From: Helicobacteraceae bacterium
GTDB lineage: Bacteria; Campylobacterota; Campylobacteria; Campylobacterales; Sulfurimonadaceae
Assembly (NCBI GenBank): GCA_013138865.1
Contig: WTBY01000040.1
Location: 1 to 39,650, forward strand
Direction: 5' to 3'
DNA: 39,650 nt
Each line of letters starts with the position of its first letter. The stretch's first letter is position 1. The notes beneath the pieces were generated by a model. It was not told the DNA's origin. It made no database searches and worked only from the letters and a program-made list of their open reading frames with translations. The position numbers were made by a program, and so were the translations under genes. Of the stretch, positions 4,774-27,080 are shown in pieces.

Positions 4774-5238
4774 TTACTGAATAGAGCGTAATTTTTCACG
4801 TACATCTTCAACATGACCTTTAACTTTTACCTTATTCCATAGCTCTTTTATCTCGCCATCAGGAGATATAATAAGTGTTGTTCTAACTATTCCCATATAT
4901 TCTCTGCCAGCTAATTTTTTTTGTTGCCATACACCATAACTTTGAAGCATCTCTGTACTCTCATCACTTAAAAGTGTAATTTCTAAATTTTTCTTCTCTA
5001 TAAAATTTCTATGTTTTTTACTACTATCAGCAGAAACACCAAGTATGATCGCACCCATATCTTCAAATTCTGGTAAATTTTCACTGAATTCACACGCTTC
5101 AGTTGAACAACCAGGAGTATTATCACGAGGGTAAAAGTATAAAACTATCCATTTTCCTACTAAATCACGCAGACAGATCTCTACATCATCTTGATTTGGT
5201 ATACAAAATTGTGGTGCTTTTTTTCCTATTTCTAACAT
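4774..5238 (-). CDS. bcp: Thioredoxin-dependent thiol peroxidase (Bcp/PrxQ)
   Basis: 154 residues, full length for the Bcp/PrxQ group of atypical two-cysteine peroxiredoxins, which reduce hydroperoxides in the cytoplasm. The active-site motif YPRDNTPGCSTEAC holds the peroxidatic Cys44 and the resolving Cys49 five residues later. LGVSADS and the late RTTLIISPDG strand match the family. The ATG at 5238 is preceded by AAGGA with good spacing. It stands alone between the gene-poor ffs region and the rpsB promoter. Confidence 0.95.
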   Translation of the reverse strand: MLEIGKKAPQFCIPNQDDVEICLRDLVGKWIVLYFYPRDNTPGCSTEACEFSENLPEFEDMGAIILGVSADSSKKHRNFIEKKNLEITLLSDESTEMLQSYGVWQQKKLAGREYMGIVRTTLIISPDGEIKELWNKVKVKGHVEDVREKLRSIQ

Positions 5239-5291
5239 AAGTAGGTTCCTTGGTTATTTATTTAAATAAAATTTATTGGGAGTCTTAAAAA

Positions 5292-5310
5292 TGTAGTACT
5301 CCACCCAGAT
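5292..5310 (-). repeat. Second, imperfect copy of the ffs 3' end (candidate att site)
   Basis: On the plus strand TGTAGTACTCC followed by ACCCAGAT repeats 6072-6091 (TGTAGTACTCC then TCTCCAGAT), with one base missing and two or so changes. The copies are in direct orientation, ~780 bp apart, and one overlaps the 3' strand of the SRP RNA closing helix. This side also has an inverted GTAGTAC / GTACTAC pair (5293-5299, 5321-5327) and a doubled ATGTACCA (5371-5378, 5383-5390), which could be core-type and arm-type recombinase sites. Interpretation as an attachment site is inference. Confidence 0.5.
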
Positions 5311-5522
5311 ACTAAAACATGTACTACTAATACCTTAACTAAAGTATTTGTAAAAAGTAATATTTTAACAATGTACCAATGGATGTACCATAAAAGCAAT
5401 GTAACCCTAAACTTAAGGGATTTATTGGCTATCTATTTTCTTAACTACTCGTTAAATCAAAGATATTTTAGCTTAAGCCGTCTTAAATATCAAAACTCTT
5501 ATTTTTTTAGCATATCTTTTGA
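5311..5522. other. Gene-free AT-rich stretch
   Basis: Apart from the doubled ATGTACCA motif noted for the neighbouring repeat, I see no convincing gene, RNA or terminator. Open frames crossing it lack family resemblance and ribosome binding sites. It lies inside the presumed decayed insertion between the two ffs-end repeats. Confidence 0.5.
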
Positions 5523-5570
5523 ATATGTCGGATTTTATTCATTTTGTCGACATATAAATTTAATATGTCG
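5523..5570. repeat. Three copies of ATATGTCG, two forming a palindrome
   Basis: ATATGTCG occurs at 5523-5530 and 5563-5570 and inverted at 5548-5555. The last two make a palindrome with 8-bp arms around a 7-bp AT spacer. It begins directly beyond the stop of the Fic-like remnant. It could be an operator, a recombinase site, or a decayed terminator; there is no T-tract on either side. Confidence 0.5.
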
Positions 5571-5572
5571 GT

Positions 5573-5782
5573 TTATATACCTTTTCTCAACCTATCAAAC
5601 AATGATACATTTATAAAATATTTTCCTCTTCCTATTTTGATACTTTGTAATATACCAATTGACTCTATCTCTTTTAAATACTTTGATGCTGTTTCTCTAT
5701 GTAGTCCTAATCCATCAACTAAAAAATCTATCTTTGTATATGGATGTGAGAATAGTATCTCTATCAAATCTATAATGTCCTC
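5573..5782 (-). pseudogene. C-terminal winged-helix fragment of a Fic-family protein
   Basis: The minus-strand frame from 5782 (just after an in-frame TAG at 5785-5783) reads about 69 residues, including LFSHPYTKIDFLVDGLG, HRETASKYLKEIESIGIL and IGRGKYFINVSLFD. This closely matches the C-terminal winged helix-turn-helix found after the Fic AMP-transferase domain in many bacterial Fic proteins. The catalytic HPFxxGNGRxxR motif and everything N-terminal to it are absent and the same frame upstream has several stops. I read it as a remnant of a lost Fic gene. A small expressed DNA-binding protein started from a GGAGG-preceded non-ATG codon is a less likely alternative. Confidence 0.65.
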
Positions 5783-6071
5783 CTATGTCAAGACCACTTA
5801 GTCCAACATTCTTATTACAGTCACCTATGATACTTTTTATAACAATTCTATATTTGTAAAACCTAGATTGAAAGAGTCTGTTACAATTGTTAAGATAAGT
5901 TTGGATTTGTTGCATGTTATACCTTGATATTTATTGATTGATTTTAGCTAAATATATATTTTAGTATGATAATTTGTTTTACTTTAGAAATAAAAAAGAG
6001 AATCTTAGTATTTGAATTAGCACTATGAATGTTTATATGAATTATATTAAAAGTGTTGTGTAAGATTTGTT

Positions 6072-6091
6072 TGTAGTACTCCTCTCCAGAT
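6072..6091 (-). repeat. ffs-side copy of the direct repeat (candidate att site)
   Basis: This copy includes the last dozen or so bases of the SRP RNA gene (6079-6090) and a few bases beyond. Here the sequence pairs perfectly with the 5' strand of the SRP closing helix, so the RNA gene is intact. Matching partner at 5292-5310. Intact RNA gene end plus displaced partial copy is the usual signature of site-specific integration at an RNA gene 3' end. Confidence 0.5.
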
Positions 6092-6182
6092 CCCTGCGGC
6101 ACATAGCAAGTTACAGCGTGCTGCTGTATTCCTACCCTGACACAGTACTATAACAACCCATTGCACAGGTCTAAAGAGAAGC
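6078..6182 (-). ncRNA. ffs: Signal recognition particle RNA, small bacterial (4.5S) type
   Basis: The stretch is visibly richer in GC than its surroundings. On the minus strand it contains GTGTCAGG, then a GTA-GGAA-TAC tetraloop hairpin, then AGCAGCAC: the domain IV core that binds Ffh, with the GGAA tetraloop and flanking GUG/CAC pairing. Outer pairing is also complete: CUUCUCUUUAGA (6181-6170) pairs over 12 positions with UCUGGAGAGGAG (6090-6079), and CCUGUG pairs with CGCAGG just inside. The length of ~105 nt is normal for this RNA. Ends are set by the closing helix and could be off by a few bases. A TATGCT box sits seven bases upstream. Confidence 0.92.
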
Positions 6183-7919: not shown

Positions 7920-10050
<2,131 letters not shown>

Positions 10051-10054
<4 letters not shown>

Positions 10055-10767
10055 AAAAACTATTTATAATTATTCAAGCTAGACTTAACTCTACAAGACT
10101 TCCAAATAAAGTTTTGCTTCCACTATGTGGCAAAACTGTTTTAGAAGTTCTACTAGATCGTTTATCAATTTTTAAAAATAATATTATTGTAGCCACTACA
10201 GCTGATTCAAATAGTATTGTAAATATCTGTAAAAAAAATAGTATTAAATATTTTATAGGTAGTCAACAAAATGTTTTAGAACGCTACTATTTAGGTGCTA
10301 AAGAGTTTGGGGCTGATGCAAATAGTACTATTGTACGAATTACATCTGATTGCCCTTTTAATGATTCCACTATTTTAGAGCGACTAATTGCTAAGCAAAG
10401 AGAAAAGCCTTCATCATATATTTATGTAGATATTGAGAACTATTTTCCTCGTGGTTTTGATGCAGAGGCATTTAGTTTTAAAATACTAGAAAATGCTTAT
10501 TTGAATGCTACAACTGATTATGATAAAGAACATGTAACACCTTTTATAAAAAGAATTAATTGTAAAAAAGTTGCAATTACTGATGATGTAGACAACTCTA
10601 ATTATAGATTGACCTTAGATACTGAAGATGACTACATATTTACAAAAGAGTTGTATAAAGAGTTAAACTACAATATAAGTAGTTCATATGAAGAGATTAT
10701 TTCAACATTAAAAAAGAATCCTCAAATAGTAAAGATAAATGCAGATATTAAACAAAAAACTACCTAA
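10051..10767 (+). CDS. SpsF-type CMP-sugar synthetase, probably serving as PseF
   Basis: 238 residues of the cytidylyltransferase superfamily. The N-terminus IIIQARLNSTRLPNKVL is the nucleotide-binding loop of the SpsF branch (Bacillus spore-coat SpsF), not the IPARxGSKG form of Campylobacter PseF. RITSDCPF carries the metal-binding Asp, and the middle has YVDIENYFPRGFDAE. By position between pseC and pseG it most likely activates pseudaminic acid with CTP. A classical NeuA-like enzyme occurs in the second cluster (32262-32963), so substrates could be swapped. An A8 tract lies at 10231-10238. Confidence 0.85.
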
Positions 10768-11692
10768 TATAATTTTTAGAGTTGATAGTTCTTCCATAAT
10801 TGGAACTGGTCACTTAATACGTACCCTTACTTTAGCAAATGAGCTAAAAGAGCATTTCAATATTATCTATATTACAAAAGAGCTTATTGGAAATAGAGAC
10901 TATTTAATAGAGCAAAATGGTTTTAAAAAAGTAACTTTAAAAAGATCATTTTTAGAGACAGTTGAGAAGTATAAACCGATCCTAATTATTATTGACCATT
11001 ATCAAATAAGCTTAGAAGAAGAGACTCTTATAAATGAGAAATATAAACTGTTAGTTTTTGATGATGAATATAAAAAACATCAATGTAATATTTTACTAAA
11101 CCACTCAATTATTTCTACACAAGAACAGTATAGTAAACTAGTTAATAAAAATACTAAAGTATTAACGGGAAGTTACTATACACTTTTAAGTGATAAGTTC
11201 TTGGGACATAAGTACAAAAAAAGTTCTATATTAAAAGTTCTGATCACACTTGGTGGAAGTGATCCACTAAACTTAAGTGAGAAAGTTTTAAAAGCACTTA
11301 ACTCTAATGTTACAATCGTAACTACCTCAGCAAACCCAAAAGCTTCTTATTTAAAAAGAAAATATCCTAACACAATTATCAATTGCTCAGACATGGCATC
11401 ACTAATTTTAAAATTTGATCTAGTTATTACAAGTGCAAGTACATCTTTGCTTGAAGTAATTGCATTAAAGAAACCTTTTATAGCTATTCAAACTGCTACA
11501 AATCAGCGTAGCACTGTCGATATACTCTCAACTGAAAACTTTAAAAATTTTATAAATAATTTTAATGCTGCAAAGTTAAAAAGAGCAGTTATTTTTTGTA
11601 AAATTGAACAAAAAAAAATAGAGAAATTTTTAAATAGTTATACATTTCATAAAGCAAATGTTGCAAAGGAGATCATAAGTGAGTTTAAATAG
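10739..11692 (+). CDS. pseG: UDP-2,4-diacetamido-trideoxy-altropyranose hydrolase, PseG
   Basis: 317 residues. PseG removes UDP from the di-N-acetylated altrose before PseI condensation. It is a metal-independent GT-B-like hydrolase; FRVDSSSIIGTGHLIRTL provides the loop with the catalytic His, and VLITLGGSDPLNLS is the nucleotide-binding glycine loop. SASTSLLEVIALKKP matches the UDP-site segment. The ATG at 10739 lies inside the preceding gene (29-bp overlap). The C-terminal third contains an A9 run (11610-11618), the longest homopolymer I saw in this operon. Confidence 0.93.
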   Translation: MQILNKKLPNIIFRVDSSSIIGTGHLIRTLTLANELKEHFNIIYITKELIGNRDYLIEQNGFKKVTLKRSFLETVEKYKPILIIIDHYQISLEEETLINEKYKLLVFDDEYKKHQCNILLNHSIISTQEQYSKLVNKNTKVLTGSYYTLLSDKFLGHKYKKSSILKVLITLGGSDPLNLSEKVLKALNSNVTIVTTSANPKASYLKRKYPNTIINCSDMASLILKFDLVITSASTSLLEVIALKKPFIAIQTATNQRSTVDILSTENFKNFINNFNAAKLKRAVIFCKIEQKKIEKFLNSYTFHKANVAKEIISEFK

Positions 11693-13217
11693 TATTCTTT
11701 TTATCTCAAATACGATTACAAAACCTTTAGAGAGAGAGCTAAAAGAGTTTAATATAACTCATGCTCCACTTGATACTATTTTCATAACTTTAAATGAAAA
11801 GTGTAGTGCTGATGTTATAGTTATTTTACTGACTACAGATTTTTTACTGACTAATTCAGTTACTCTTTTAAAAAATGCTCTTGTTACTTTTAGAGAAAAA
11901 AATAGTTCCAAAATTATTATTAATAATGCTGTAGGTACATTTTTTAATATTTCTCAAAATATTGTTGATGAGAAGCAAAAAAAGTTAACTACTCTAAACT
12001 CTACACTTTCATCTTTAAAAATTAGTGATTTATCTATTTTAGATCTATTTACAATATCACTTCAGTATGGACTACATAATATTTTAAATGAAAAAAATAG
12101 TTATCTATTTCAGACACCATTTACAAAGCAAGGGTATAACCTAATTGCTAAAGAGATTAAAAAAGCTATTTTACTTTTTAATACTAAGCGTATTAAGGTA
12201 ATAGCGATTGATGCTGATAATACTTTATGGGGTGGTATTATTGGAGAAGATGGCATAGATGGTATTAGTTGTGATCGTAACTATCCAGGGATTGTATATA
12301 CAAAATTTCAAGAGAGGCTACTCTCTCTTAAAAAGAGTGGCATAATTTTAATACTTCTTAGTAAAAATAATGAAGCTGATTTAGCAGAAGTTTTTGAGAA
12401 AAAAAGTATGCCACTAAATTTAGATGATTTTGTAGCAAAAAAAGTGAACTGGAACTCTAAGAGTGAAAATCTTGTAGAAGTTTTAAAAGAGATCAACATA
12501 ACAAAAGACGATGTAATTTTTTTGGATGACTCTAACAATGAAATAGAAGAGATGAAAAGTAGACTAGCAATAAAATGCTATAAAATGAACCCAGAAAATC
12601 CAATAGATAACCTAAAGACTATTGAAAGCATAATAGAACTTCGTACTCTTCATATAAGTGATGAAGATAAAAAGAAGAGTCAACTCTATGCCGATGAGAG
12701 CAAAAGAACTGCTTTAGACTTAACACTAAATTCTAAAGATGAATATATAAAATCTTTGAATATTGAGATCAGTTGCAAGCTAAATGACATTTCAAAAATA
12801 GATCGTATCACTCAACTAATAAATAAAACAAACCAATTCAACTTAACAACGATACGTTTAAACACTCAAGAGGTAGAAAAAATAATGAGTAAAAATAGCC
12901 TTTATAGTTTTAGTGTAAAAGATAAATTTGGAGATATGGGATTAGTTGGTGTGCTAATTATTCAAGCTCAAACAATAACAAATTTTTTAATGAGCTGTAG
13001 AGTTCTAGGAAGAGAAATTGAGCAGAGTGTTATAGCTTATGTATGTTCTCTATATACAGAACTAAAAGCTTCATATAAACCAACTTCTAAAAACTCTTTA
13101 GCTGAAACTTTTTATGAGAGCAATGGATTTGAGCTAATAAAAGATAGTGGTGAAAAAAGATATAATTTAAAAACTAAAAAGAGCATAAATAAACACATAA
13201 AGGTTGCACATTGTTAA
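11679..13217 (+). CDS. FkbH-like HAD-family protein with C-terminal acyltransferase-like region
   Basis: 512 residues. Residues ~172-330 are a HAD-IIIC domain of the FkbH type: IAIDADNTLWGGIIGEDG (nucleophile region Asp178/Asp180), LLSKNNEADL and FLDDSNNEIEEM. The ~170-residue N-terminal part is variable, and residues ~350-490 look like the GNAT-like half typical of FkbH proteins (GDMGLVGVL, SCRVLGREIEQ). FkbH enzymes are known to load an acyl carrier protein with a phosphoglycerate-derived glyceryl group. An ACP gene follows directly (7-bp overlap), then KAS III and a second ACP, so an acyl-ACP route is strongly implied. The acyl product is not predictable. Confidence 0.88.
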   Translation: MSLNSILFISNTITKPLERELKEFNITHAPLDTIFITLNEKCSADVIVILLTTDFLLTNSVTLLKNALVTFREKNSSKIIINNAVGTFFNISQNIVDEKQKKLTTLNSTLSSLKISDLSILDLFTISLQYGLHNILNEKNSYLFQTPFTKQGYNLIAKEIKKAILLFNTKRIKVIAIDADNTLWGGIIGEDGIDGISCDRNYPGIVYTKFQERLLSLKKSGIILILLSKNNEADLAEVFEKKSMPLNLDDFVAKKVNWNSKSENLVEVLKEINITKDDVIFLDDSNNEIEEMKSRLAIKCYKMNPENPIDNLKTIESIIELRTLHISDEDKKKSQLYADESKRTALDLTLNSKDEYIKSLNIEISCKLNDISKIDRITQLINKTNQFNLTTIRLNTQEVEKIMSKNSLYSFSVKDKFGDMGLVGVLIIQAQTITNFLMSCRVLGREIEQSVIAYVCSLYTELKASYKPTSKNSLAETFYESNGFELIKDSGEKRYNLKTKKSINKHIKVAHC

Positions 13218-22368: not shown

Positions 22369-24282
22369 TTAAAGTGTATCTACCATTGCTCCTTGAATAA
22401 TTTTTATATCTAACTTTTTAAGTTGTTCTAGCTCATCTTTAGTATTAACACCTGTAGCAATTAATTTAATTGAGAGTGATGCCAAGAACATATTTAACGT
22501 AGATAATGATGTAGCACTACTTTTTAATAAAAAATCTTTATTAGATTTTAAAAAGAGTGGTTGAAGATCTTTTAAATAAGCGAAGTCCTTACTTTCAGCT
22601 ATAAAATTACTGATACCAAAATCAAAATTATGAGATCTTATTAGTTCAATTATTGAACTTGAATGCTCAAGGTTATTACAGACAGTGCTTTCTGGGATCT
22701 CAAAGATTGCCTTAGTACTTATATTTTTAGGTATCTGTTGAAGTATCTCTTTTAGTTTGTATACACTATCTCTACCCTCTAAGAAACTGGCATTTAACTG
22801 AATAGAATATACTCTTTGCTCTTTCAACTTTTGAGCATCAAGTAAAATATTTTTTAGTAAATAGATATTTAACTCATCCAACATATCTAGCTTCATTGCA
22901 AGTGCAATAAATTCACCATACTTGTAAGTTCTATTTTCACTTACCAATGATAGAGATGTAGTAAAATGTATATTTTTATTAGTTTCAAGTTCTACAACAG
23001 CATGGTTTAATATCTTTATTTGACTATTTTGTATAGCATTTTTTAAAATTTCTCGCCACTGCTCTTTTCCCTTTATTTCAGTGCTATCCTCCATTTGTAA
23101 GTAGTACTGTCCAAAGTCTAAAAGTTCTGCTTGTGCTAGTGCATAATCAACTGAAGCAAACACTTCTGCTATTTGTTGCTCTAGAGAATAAGCTGTTGCA
23201 CCTATATGCACACCTATATTTTTTTCATTTAGAGTAAAATATTCAAAAAGATCTAAAATCTCTTTTGATATTTCTTTTAGCAATAATTCACAATTCACTA
23301 GAGCAATTTGAGGTATTAAAATATTAAATTCACTTCCATTAAGGCGTGAGACCACAGCATCGTTAAAATGGGCAGTAGACTCAATTATTTGTTTAGCCAT
23401 AACTCTGAAAAGATCATCAGTTTTTTGGTGTCCAAAAAGTTTATTAATTTTTGCAGTATCGCTTATTGACAACATTATAATAACACCTCCATTGTTGACG
23501 TTATCTGGACTTAAATACTCATTTAGCTTTAGTATTAAATATTCCCTATTGTAAAGGTTTGTTAAATGGTCTTTATATAGTAAGTCTTTATTGAATGATA
23601 ATGCTTTATTGCCTTCTTTAAATATATTCTCTACTCTTTCAACCATAGAGTTCATACTCTTAACGATATCTTGAAAATCAAGTGTAAATACCTCTTTCTT
23701 TTGAATTATAAACTCATTATTTAATATAGACTCTGCTTGTTTTCTAATTCCTACTAGTGGCTTTAAAATAAAGTGTAGAAGTAAGTTTAGAGCAACTAAA
23801 GCAACAAAGCTAACAACAAGAAATGTACTTACTAAGTATTTAAATGTTTTATACAACTCTAAATAAACTACATTTACATCGCTCTTAATACTCAAAATAC
23901 CTATTAGTTTCCAGCCACTTGAGACTTGCGCAACCGCTTCTGGTGCTTCAAAGCTAATTAAGTTAAGAAATAACACTGGAATATTTAATTTATTTTTCTG
24001 TCTTAAACGCTCGTATATCAGTTCACCCTGCATATTAGTCAGTACTATTTTTTCCATATTTGAATTATCAAAATTAGCATTAATTATAGTAGACATCATA
24101 GCTTTATCCCCTCCACTTGATGCTAAAGAGAGACTTAATGACGTAGCACTATTTTGTGCATTTTTATATAAACTATCTTGAGATGAGTTTATAATAGTAT
24201 TAAAAATAATCATCAAGATACTTATAAGAATAGTAACTAATAAAAAAGATACTAAAATTGCTATTTGTCTATATAGTGTCAT
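22369..24282 (-). CDS. lapD: LapD-like inner-membrane c-di-GMP receptor (degenerate GGDEF and EAL)
   Basis: 637 residues. Order: N-terminal membrane helix (~6-28), LapD/MoxY-type periplasmic domain, second helix (~150-170), HAMP, GGDEF-like and EAL-like domains. Both enzyme motifs are degraded: RLNGSEF replaces GGDEF, EAL reads TSL, DDFG reads FDFG and AEGVET reads ATGVNT. It should therefore bind rather than make or cut c-di-GMP. In Pseudomonas, LapD sequesters the protease LapG when c-di-GMP is high; here the LapG-like gene is directly upstream, overlapping by 4 bp. No LapA-type adhesin gene is in this window. Confidence 0.88.
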   Translation of the reverse strand: MTLYRQIAILVSFLLVTILISILMIIFNTIINSSQDSLYKNAQNSATSLSLSLASSGGDKAMMSTIINANFDNSNMEKIVLTNMQGELIYERLRQKNKLNIPVLFLNLISFEAPEAVAQVSSGWKLIGILSIKSDVNVVYLELYKTFKYLVSTFLVVSFVALVALNLLLHFILKPLVGIRKQAESILNNEFIIQKKEVFTLDFQDIVKSMNSMVERVENIFKEGNKALSFNKDLLYKDHLTNLYNREYLILKLNEYLSPDNVNNGGVIIMLSISDTAKINKLFGHQKTDDLFRVMAKQIIESTAHFNDAVVSRLNGSEFNILIPQIALVNCELLLKEISKEILDLFEYFTLNEKNIGVHIGATAYSLEQQIAEVFASVDYALAQAELLDFGQYYLQMEDSTEIKGKEQWREILKNAIQNSQIKILNHAVVELETNKNIHFTTSLSLVSENRTYKYGEFIALAMKLDMLDELNIYLLKNILLDAQKLKEQRVYSIQLNASFLEGRDSVYKLKEILQQIPKNISTKAIFEIPESTVCNNLEHSSSIIELIRSHNFDFGISNFIAESKDFAYLKDLQPLFLKSNKDFLLKSSATSLSTLNMFLASLSIKLIATGVNTKDELEQLKKLDIKIIQGAMVDTL

Positions 24283-24869
24283 ATTTTATCCCTTTTTATA
24301 TTTTCTAAAAGTTGATCCCATTTTTTATGCTTTTTCTTTTTCATCAGTTCACCGTTGAAATAGTAGATCGGTTTTAAATCTTCTCTTTTTGTTGCTGGTA
24401 AAATTTCAAATTTATTATTATCTAAAACAAGTGGTATAGAATCAGGAGTTTCAAAATAGGTTAAAACCATATGTGGAGTGTTAAACTTAGTTGATCTTAC
24501 ATAAGTAAAGTAGAGCTTAGACGTGTTTAAACCTAGATAGCGTAGAGCAAAATATTTTGCTATCACATAATCTTCACAATCACCAAGATTTTTTGCTAAA
24601 AATTCATTTGGCGTTGCCCAATAATCTTTTTGGTTATATAGCGATATGTCAGTACTGTAACCTACTTTATTGAAATAGTCGTTAACTTTTTTGATCTTTA
24701 TTAGTTCATCTTTAGGTAATTCATCACGAAGGTTATTATTTAGCGTAATAAATCTTTTTTTAGCTTTGCTGTTATACTTATGTTCTACTTTATCTATTGT
24801 AGACTTTGAAATATAATCATTTGCATTTATCATAGTAGAGATAGTAAGTAATATTAAAATAAACTTCAT
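24279..24869 (-). CDS. lapG: LapG-like periplasmic cysteine protease (BTLCP family)
   Basis: 196 residues from the ATG at 24869. Signal peptide MKFILILLTISTMINA. Catalytic residues of the bacterial transglutaminase-like cysteine proteases are visible: Cys98 in NLGDCEDYVIAKY, His133 in NTPHMVLTYF and Asp150 in LVLDNN. LapG-type enzymes clip large adhesins near the N-terminus to release biofilm. An ATG at 24887 adds six residues, but a TAAAAT box (24883-24878) lies between the two ATGs, favouring the shorter protein. Coupled to lapD by a 4-bp overlap. Confidence 0.88.
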   Translation of the reverse strand: MKFILILLTISTMINANDYISKSTIDKVEHKYNSKAKKRFITLNNNLRDELPKDELIKIKKVNDYFNKVGYSTDISLYNQKDYWATPNEFLAKNLGDCEDYVIAKYFALRYLGLNTSKLYFTYVRSTKFNTPHMVLTYFETPDSIPLVLDNNKFEILPATKREDLKPIYYFNGELMKKKKHKKWDQLLENIKRDKI

Positions 24870-24877
24870 GGAATAAT

Positions 24878-24883
24878 ATTTTA
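24878..24883 (-). promoter_or_regulatory. -10 box of lapG-lapD
   Basis: GCTAAAAT on the minus strand, the usual Campylobacterota -10 form, ends eight bases before the favoured lapG ATG (24869). There is no Shine-Dalgarno, so the mRNA may be leaderless. The divergent riboswitch-subtilase unit starts ~60 bp away. Confidence 0.4.
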
Positions 24884-24936
24884 GCATAAAAAAGGTTTAA
24901 TTAAAAAATTTAAGACTTTTATTATTTATATAATGG

Positions 24937-25026
24937 TATATTTAGGCAATTGCCAAACTAGTTGTGAAGCTAGGACGGAAAGCCAAACAGGTCTTTGTTT
25001 TCAAAGATGGCTGGGTTACAAATATC
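24937..25026 (+). promoter_or_regulatory. c-di-GMP-I (GEMM-I) riboswitch
   Basis: Conserved blocks in order: GCCAAAC; stem CTAGTT / AGCTAG closed by the GNRA tetraloop GTGA; the core GGACGGAAAGCC; a second hairpin TCTTTG-TTTT-CAAAGA; and GGCTGGGTTAC. This matches the GEMM-I layout (CAAACC..GNRA..GGGACGCAAAGCC..CCGGGUU), including the tetraloop that docks into the second arm. An outer stem can form between ATATTT (24938-24943) and AAATAT (25020-25025). The same AAATAT can instead pair with ATATTT at 25032-25037, suggesting a switch in the linker to the subtilase gene. A TATAAT at 24929-24934 is the likely promoter, which may cut into the outer stem. Confidence 0.88.
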
Positions 25027-25076
25027 TTCAAATATTTATTTTGTAGCTCTATTTTATCATAGAAATGGAGAACATC

Positions 25077-27080
25077 ATGTTTTTAATCATAAAAAATCTT
25101 ATCACTGCTTTTTTATCTATACTGATAATAGGTGCACTATCTTCTTTAAATGCTAGTTATGAAATCAATAGTTCATTAAATAATGAGCTAATTGCCGAAT
25201 ATGAAACAGAGGGTAGTGTTTTAAAAGATATTTTAATATCCGAATATCAAAATGCTAACAATATCATACCAAATGAGCAAATATCTATTCTAGATATATT
25301 AAACTCATCTGCTCTGTATGCTTCAATGACTGGTGAAAGTAATACCAATGCAGATAGTGGTATTATCCAAAAGTTAATTTATATTACCGATAAATTAGAA
25401 ACTGAAGGCAGTGTCTCGGTAACACTTAAGCTGCAGTATAAATTTTATCCTGAGGGAACCTTCTCTACAGAACAAGAGGTATTAGAACAGAGACAACAAA
25501 TGATAGATATACTAGTTCCTATTATTAATGACAAAATGTTGAGCTCTGTTGAGATGCTACAGTCAATTCAAATATATGACACAATACCTTACTTTACTCT
25601 AACTCTTAATCAAAATAACTTTTGGAACTTACTAGAGAGTAATGGTATTATTGATATAGAATTAAACGATTTAAATGAAGTTAGTTTAACACAAAGTTCT
25701 CCATTAATTCAAGCAACAACATCGTGGGATAATGCGATAACTGGTGCTGGTCAAGTTGTTGCTGTACTAGACACAGGTGTTAGAAAAAGTCACGCTTTTT
25801 TAGCTAATAAGGTAGTTTCTGAAGCATGTTACTCAAATGCTGGTGGTTGGGGTAGTGGTACATCACTATGTCCTGGTGGTTGGACATCTATGACCAGTTC
25901 AGGTGCAGGGGTAAACTGTAGTACATCTTTTAGTGCATGTAATCACGGTACTCATGTTGCAGGTATTATTGCTGGTAAAGGTGCATCTTTCTCAGGAGTT
26001 GCTAAAGAATCTAAAATTATTGCTATACAAATATTTACCAATATTGGTGGGCAAATTTTAACTTACACTAGTGATCAGACAAAAGGGCTGGAGAGAGTAT
26101 ATGCATTAAGAAATAGCTATAGTATTGCCTCTGTTAATATGAGTATAGGCGGTGGAAAACACACCTCTTATTGCAATAGTGACTCTAGAAAAGCAATTAT
26201 TGACAACTTACTATCAGCTGGTATTGCCACTGTTATTGCCGCTGGAAATGATGGTTATACAAATGCGGTTAGTGCTCCTGGTTGTATTCAAAGTGCGATT
26301 ACAGTTGGTGCAACATCTGATGGTGGATGGGGACGTACAGTTGACACAGTTGATTCATATTCAAATAGTGCTTCTATGATTGATCTACTTGCTCCTGGTA
26401 GTGCAATATACTCATCTATTGCAACATCAAATACGGCATACTCCACTTATCAAGGTACATCAATGGCAGCACCACAAGTTGCTGGCGCATTTGCACTTTT
26501 AAAATCAGCTAAAAATAGTGCTACTGTAGCAGAATCACTTAATGCATTACAAACTTCTGGAAAGAGTGTTACTGATTCAAAAAATGGTATTGTTAAAAGA
26601 AGAATTAAGATACATGATGCAACTTTACAGTTTGGAACTGGTAGCATAACAGTAAATATTAGTCCTGCTGGAGCTACATCTATTGGCGCTAAATGGACTA
26701 TTGATGGCAGCACATGGAACAACAGTGGTACAGAAGTAACAGATCTTCCAATTGGTACATATAGTATTACATTTAAATCAATAATACACTCCAATAATAA
26801 AAAAGTTTGGACTACACCATCCTCACAAAGTACTATTATTTCATTTGATGGGGACAGCAAATCATTAAGTGGAACATATTCTGAAAATGATAAAGATAAA
26901 TCACTAAAAGATTTTAATGGCGATGGTAAAAGTGATATCTTATTTAGAAATACTTCTAATGGTTCTACATATATTTATACTATGGATGGTTCAACTTATA
27001 GTGGCTCTTCTGTAAAAGACTCTAGTGGCAATATACCAAAACCATCTTATAGTGGTTGGTCAACTACTTTAATCTTCTAA
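25077..27080 (+). CDS. Secreted subtilisin-like serine protease (S8) under riboswitch control
   Basis: 667 residues from the ATG at 25077, which has GGAG upstream (a 4-codon longer start at 25065 is less likely). N-terminal signal segment LITAFLSILIIGALSSLNA. The catalytic domain holds Asp232 in VVAVLDTGV, His290 in NHGTHVAGI, oxyanion Asn391 in AAGNDG and Ser462 in GTSMAAPQVAG. Then a PEGA-like beta segment (~535-600) and a single VCBS/FG-GAP-like calcium loop, DFNGDGKSDILFR, near the end. Homologous proteins often carry several such repeats, so the C-terminus looks short. The 3' end overlaps the convergent SIS gene by 12 bp. Could mature or shed a surface protein. Confidence 0.9.
   Translation: MFLIIKNLITAFLSILIIGALSSLNASYEINSSLNNELIAEYETEGSVLKDILISEYQNANNIIPNEQISILDILNSSALYASMTGESNTNADSGIIQKLIYITDKLETEGSVSVTLKLQYKFYPEGTFSTEQEVLEQRQQMIDILVPIINDKMLSSVEMLQSIQIYDTIPYFTLTLNQNNFWNLLESNGIIDIELNDLNEVSLTQSSPLIQATTSWDNAITGAGQVVAVLDTGVRKSHAFLANKVVSEACYSNAGGWGSGTSLCPGGWTSMTSSGAGVNCSTSFSACNHGTHVAGIIAGKGASFSGVAKESKIIAIQIFTNIGGQILTYTSDQTKGLERVYALRNSYSIASVNMSIGGGKHTSYCNSDSRKAIIDNLLSAGIATVIAAGNDGYTNAVSAPGCIQSAITVGATSDGGWGRTVDTVDSYSNSASMIDLLAPGSAIYSSIATSNTAYSTYQGTSMAAPQVAGAFALLKSAKNSATVAESLNALQTSGKSVTDSKNGIVKRRIKIHDATLQFGTGSITVNISPAGATSIGAKWTIDGSTWNNSGTEVTDLPIGTYSITFKSIIHSNNKKVWTTPSSQSTIISFDGDSKSLSGTYSENDKDKSLKDFNGDGKSDILFRNTSNGSTYIYTMDGSTYSGSSVKDSSGNIPKPSYSGWSTTLIF

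Follow-up and report, generated by a model that had tools for sequence, protein, structure and literature searches.

How did ffs, the gene for the bacterial small SRP RNA, come to be followed by the peroxiredoxin-like gene bcp, and does the DNA between them hold the scar of an element that once attached at the 3' end of ffs? The window, i.e., the whole stretch of DNA analysed here, is one entire contig of 39,650 bases (G000:C82) from a draft genome of 3.03 Mb. This source genome is the only one of its genus in the comparison set, and the named relatives used for bcp belong to Sulfurimonas, to other Sulfurimonadaceae or to other Campylobacterales. The gene bcp lies downstream of ffs at a spacing of 841 bp (gap 5239-6079) and heads the gene row bcp-rpsB-tsf-lolD-fliR. 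Upstream of ffs, an Hpt-domain gene is followed by a nucleosidase-like gene. Apart from bcp and the Hpt gene, the local gene names were read from translations. The features of the junction are collected in Table 1.

Table 1. Features at the ffs-bcp junction, in window positions
Feature	Position	Strand	Basis or reading
bcp-like peroxiredoxin gene, right-hand border of junction	4774..5238	-	PF00578, E 2.2e-39
Imperfect second copy of ffs 3' end	5291..5310	-	Alignment; read as a displaced gene end or a candidate attR
Tandem repeat with a 40-bp unit (2.2 copies) that includes ATATGTCG	5511..5598	.	Tandem Repeats Finder
3' remnant of SoFic-like Fic protein gene, cut at IS end	5573..5769	-	PF21248 SoFic-like_C, E 1.2e-19
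Right end of IS3-family insertion sequence, remainder gone	5770..~5843	-	Conserved multicopy end; limit at 5843 taken from alignment
Reference repeat copy: ffs 3' end and 8 bases past the gene	6072..6091	-	Alignment; candidate attL at ffs 3' end
ffs, bacterial small SRP RNA gene, intact	6080..6177	-	Rfam RF00169, 60.7 bits, full model length

Other parts of the window were also noted in passing. A cluster resembling that for pseudaminic acid synthesis (pseB, pseC, pseF and pseG-like genes) is present at 7938-13217, beside nucleosidase and SDR genes. A c-di-GMP-I riboswitch (24942-25023) precedes the gene of a large subtilisin-like secreted protease (25065-27080), and putative LapD-like and LapG-like genes adjoin this pair on the opposite strand (22369-24887). 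The start of the contig (1-178) is occupied by a tandem repeat of 39/81 bp that is rich in TTC/TCT.

The gap between ffs and bcp consists of about 840 bases of mobile-DNA debris, with no sign of any function at present. It is AT-rich, its GC content being 0.26 against 0.33 in bcp-fliR. The original prediction had proposed a Fic remnant here, and one is indeed present; its residues 1-56 correspond to positions 21-76 of the 76-position PF21248 profile, which is the C-terminal part of the domain. The ATATGTCG repeats that had been reported were also recovered, as part of a 40-bp tandem repeat that runs into the fic remnant at its 3' end. No ORF longer than 85 aa and no integrase domain was found in the gap, in agreement with the earlier statements that no intact gene is left between ffs and bcp and that the integrase is gone. 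Outside the IS end and fic, the remaining sequence is AT-rich and non-coding. Within the source genome, nothing from the gap recurs except the IS end, and searches of phage and plasmid collections gave no relevant match.

The IS end had been overlooked in the original prediction. It truncates the Fic remnant at base 5770, and the two are directly fused, so that the fic frame starts immediately after it. The sequence TAAGTGGTCTTGAYATAGGAGGACATTATAG, which stands directly before the Fic remnant, recurs once in the source genome without a mismatch (G000:C12:59250-59280). Among 161 genomes, copies of this end were observed in three, with seven in G076, four in G018 and one in G009, while a reversed control pattern gave none. 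In G018, one copy directly follows the C-terminus of a rve-type transposase frame (rve_3, 9.4e-6, a little below the Pfam cut-off; rve_2, 1.5e-4, just above the cut-off), and this rve-like open frame is the reason for interpreting 5770-5843 as an IS3-family right end. We take the frame to be generally like IS3 OrfB, and the choice of IS3 over another rve-type family rests also on this likeness. The window thus shares with the IS3 family a multicopy, conserved right end of the kind seen beside the transposase C-terminus in relatives; it differs in keeping the right end only, without the left, so that neither the length of the element nor its target duplication can be read. In the window, the IS end was thus joined to fic before both were truncated. 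IS3-family transposition into fic accounts for part of the debris. A few Sulfurimonadaceae genomes also contain miniature versions of the IS, in which the two ends are about 90-310 bp apart.

The part of the debris that points to ffs itself is a direct repeat. The copy of the ffs 3' end that had been claimed, in the same orientation as the gene, is real: 18 of 20 aligned columns are identical, with one mismatch and one gap (TGTAGTACTCCAC-CCAGAT against TGTAGTACTCCTCTCCAGAT, local score 28). The distal copy stops where ffs stops, as a displaced 3' end would. When the gap was shuffled with a first-order Markov model, this score was met by 7 of 20,000 shuffles; in a larger set it was reached by 13 of 40,000, of which 11 span the ffs 3' terminus. 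In a control with real sequence, about 1.5% of independent GC-matched 40-mers from the window had an equally good repeat nearby (2,596 overlapping 40-mers, or about 195 independent ones; partner within ~830 bp; three separate places). If the match is also required to sit on a gene end, it is rarer again than this figure. The excess of the repeat over chance is moderate. In the source genome, no second att-like copy was found past background matches with three mismatches, nor was any hairpin or terminator found in the distal copy.

The distal end had further been said to carry the core and arm sites of a tyrosine recombinase, in the form of a 7-bp inverted pair and a doubled motif. Both motifs exist, with GTAGTAC at 5293 and GTACTAC at 5321, and ATGTACCA at 5371 and 5383, but the meaning assigned to them does not hold. 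When the same 115 bp were shuffled, 22% of the shuffles had an 8-mer direct repeat, 35% a 7-mer inverted pair and 7.8% both. The motifs are thus at chance level, and their reading as core and arm sites is not supported.

These controls lend weight to a different account, in which IS activity and deletion made a rearrangement junction, the repeat is a chance likeness in AT-rich debris, and no site-specific recombinase was ever involved. The IS3-family end fused to truncated fic would be a sufficient source of rearrangement, and both the frequency of equally good repeats in real sequence and the chance level of the putative core and arm motifs agree with such a history. It fits less well with the rarity of the score among the 40,000 shuffles and with a copy whose end coincides exactly with the functional terminus of the gene. 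We regard this account as a serious contender, somewhat short of even odds.

The comparison with relatives bears on both histories. None of 60 ffs loci of the family has bcp downstream (up to 12 kb), and none of 80 named bcp loci has ffs nearby. In those 80 loci, as in 29 bcp loci from the family, bcp either has different genes in front of it or stands in a locus without ffs; the order bcp-rpsB-tsf-lolD-fliR is partly retained in relatives, with other genes ahead of it. Among the genomes sampled, the ffs-bcp junction is thus confined to this lineage. Since ffs and bcp are not adjacent elsewhere, the history must involve more than an insertion between two genes that were neighbours in an ancestor, and this same absence is in keeping with an origin by IS-driven rearrangement. 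In the 60 family loci, no repeat of the ffs end equals that of the window in quality; three others barely beat their own shuffles. The displaced-flank test, a weak one, gave no signal for either flank, and the sequence past the distal copy is unlike the ffs flanks of relatives.

Integrases were sought with an HMM able to retrieve those already known from the source genome, in 60 family loci and then in 60 more (20 of the family and 40 of the wider class). In about 80 loci of the family, read for up to 12 kb on the downstream side of ffs, no tyrosine integrase was detected, which again suits a history without a site-specific recombinase. In the second set, integrases lie downstream of ffs in two loci, L293 (~5 kb) and L314 (~4.7 kb), both outside the family, and no copy of the ffs end was found near either. 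Scans of IMG/VR contigs with ffs-end and ffs-core patterns returned one unrelated match and then none, and a contig scan with the Hpt-domain protein gave no match.

Could the distal copy instead be the leftover of a second, degraded ffs gene? Its sequence AGTATCTGG is nearer to the usual ffs of the family (GGTATCTGG) than is the genome's own ffs (GGGATCTGG), which speaks for such an origin. However, two SRP RNA matches occur in only 2 of the 368 genomes of the class that have a match (G329 and G500), and we consider a second gene highly improbable. The only SRP RNA match in the source genome is ffs itself. A degraded copy in the gap was rejected, as Rfam finds no SRP RNA similarity in 5200-6079 even at permissive thresholds. 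In G500, the two matches lie on contigs 42 and 52, and both are full-length.

A possible parallel is seen in a genome of the same family but another genus (G041), whose contig stops 205 bp past ffs (L327 1087-1310, end of contig 50). Its last 55 bp are an exact repeat of its own ffs end from GGTATCTGG onward, including GGTATCTGGAGGGGAGTCTT, and lie about 150 bp past ffs, from which they are separated by a GC-rich stretch with an inverted repeat. The left border of this repeat is nearly that of the distal copy in the window (GTATCTGG). A length of 55 bases is a common assembly overlap, and the repeat may therefore be a tandem duplication or a loop in the assembly graph instead of an attachment site. 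A second exit of the repeat was searched for in contigs 1-40 (first 20 kb each) without a match. As an attachment site at the ffs end, the G041 repeat is ambiguous. It is conceivable, though rather unlikely, that the Sulfurimonadaceae harbour an uncharacterised family of small integrative elements that attach at the ffs 3' end, with a scar in the window and an exact repeat in G041.

Taking these lines together, we give a probability of about one half to the reading that the gap is a lineage-specific junction containing a decayed element that attached at the 3' end of ffs. According to the proposed history, foreign DNA with a SoFic-like fic gene would have arrived between ffs and bcp, and an IS3-family element would have inserted into fic. 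Deletions would then have taken the beginning of fic and the greater part of the IS, a step whose outcome can be seen in the fused IS end and truncated gene. An integrative element may have used the ffs 3' end as its attachment site, the 20-base copy beside bcp being the displaced end, and its integrase would afterwards have been lost. The 20-base copy is most simply explained by such a displaced end after integration.

The scar reading is favoured by a direct repeat that is correctly oriented and covers the exact gene end, by the fusion of a truncated fic to a multicopy IS end, by the AT-richness of the gap and the absence of the junction in relatives, and by the precedents for insertion at SRP RNA genes. 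It is disfavoured by the lack of an integrase both in the gap and near ffs in the family, by the lack of an IMG/VR contig with the ffs core pattern tried, by the shortness and imperfection of a repeat that real sequence can match, and by the chance-level motifs and the unlike distal flank. Of the scar that was originally predicted, the inserted mobile remains and the copy ending at the ffs end thus stand, while the tyrosine-recombinase sites do not. If the repeat is truly an attachment remnant, the SRP RNA gene joins the sites of integrative elements in Campylobacterota; if it is not, the case shows that in AT-rich genomes a short repeat next to an RNA gene has to be checked against real sequence.

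Transposition of another kind also has to be weighed at such a gene. When a Tn7-like element inserts, 5 bp are duplicated and no gene end is copied. That the gap is what remains of such an element is therefore very improbable; a TGT...ACA pair of ends was not seen by eye, and no tns genes are present in the gap. The idea draws its support from Vibrio, where a Tn7-like element has been reported downstream of the SRP RNA gene (PMC9608740). The gene neighbourhood used as the insertion site is the same as in the window, but DDE transposition copies no gene end, and Tn7-like ends were not noticed here.

Insertion of islands and of Tn7-like elements at SRP RNA genes has been described before (PMC6299553, PMC9608740), so that even under the favourable reading, that of an element attached at ffs, this locus is a worn example of a type already known; an intact element was not found. 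In Pseudomonas aeruginosa, genomic islands are reported with identical SRP RNAs on both sides (PMC6299553). There too the SRP RNA gene serves as a preferred site, but those islands are complete with their cargo, whereas only about 0.8 kb of debris is left in the window. The islands of the Islander/TIGER type at tRNA and tmRNA genes (PMC4383910) differ in their target, which here is ffs, and the fragment in the window is imperfect and has no integrase. In both, however, a displaced fragment of the 3' end lies in direct orientation past the foreign DNA, and the gene itself is kept intact.
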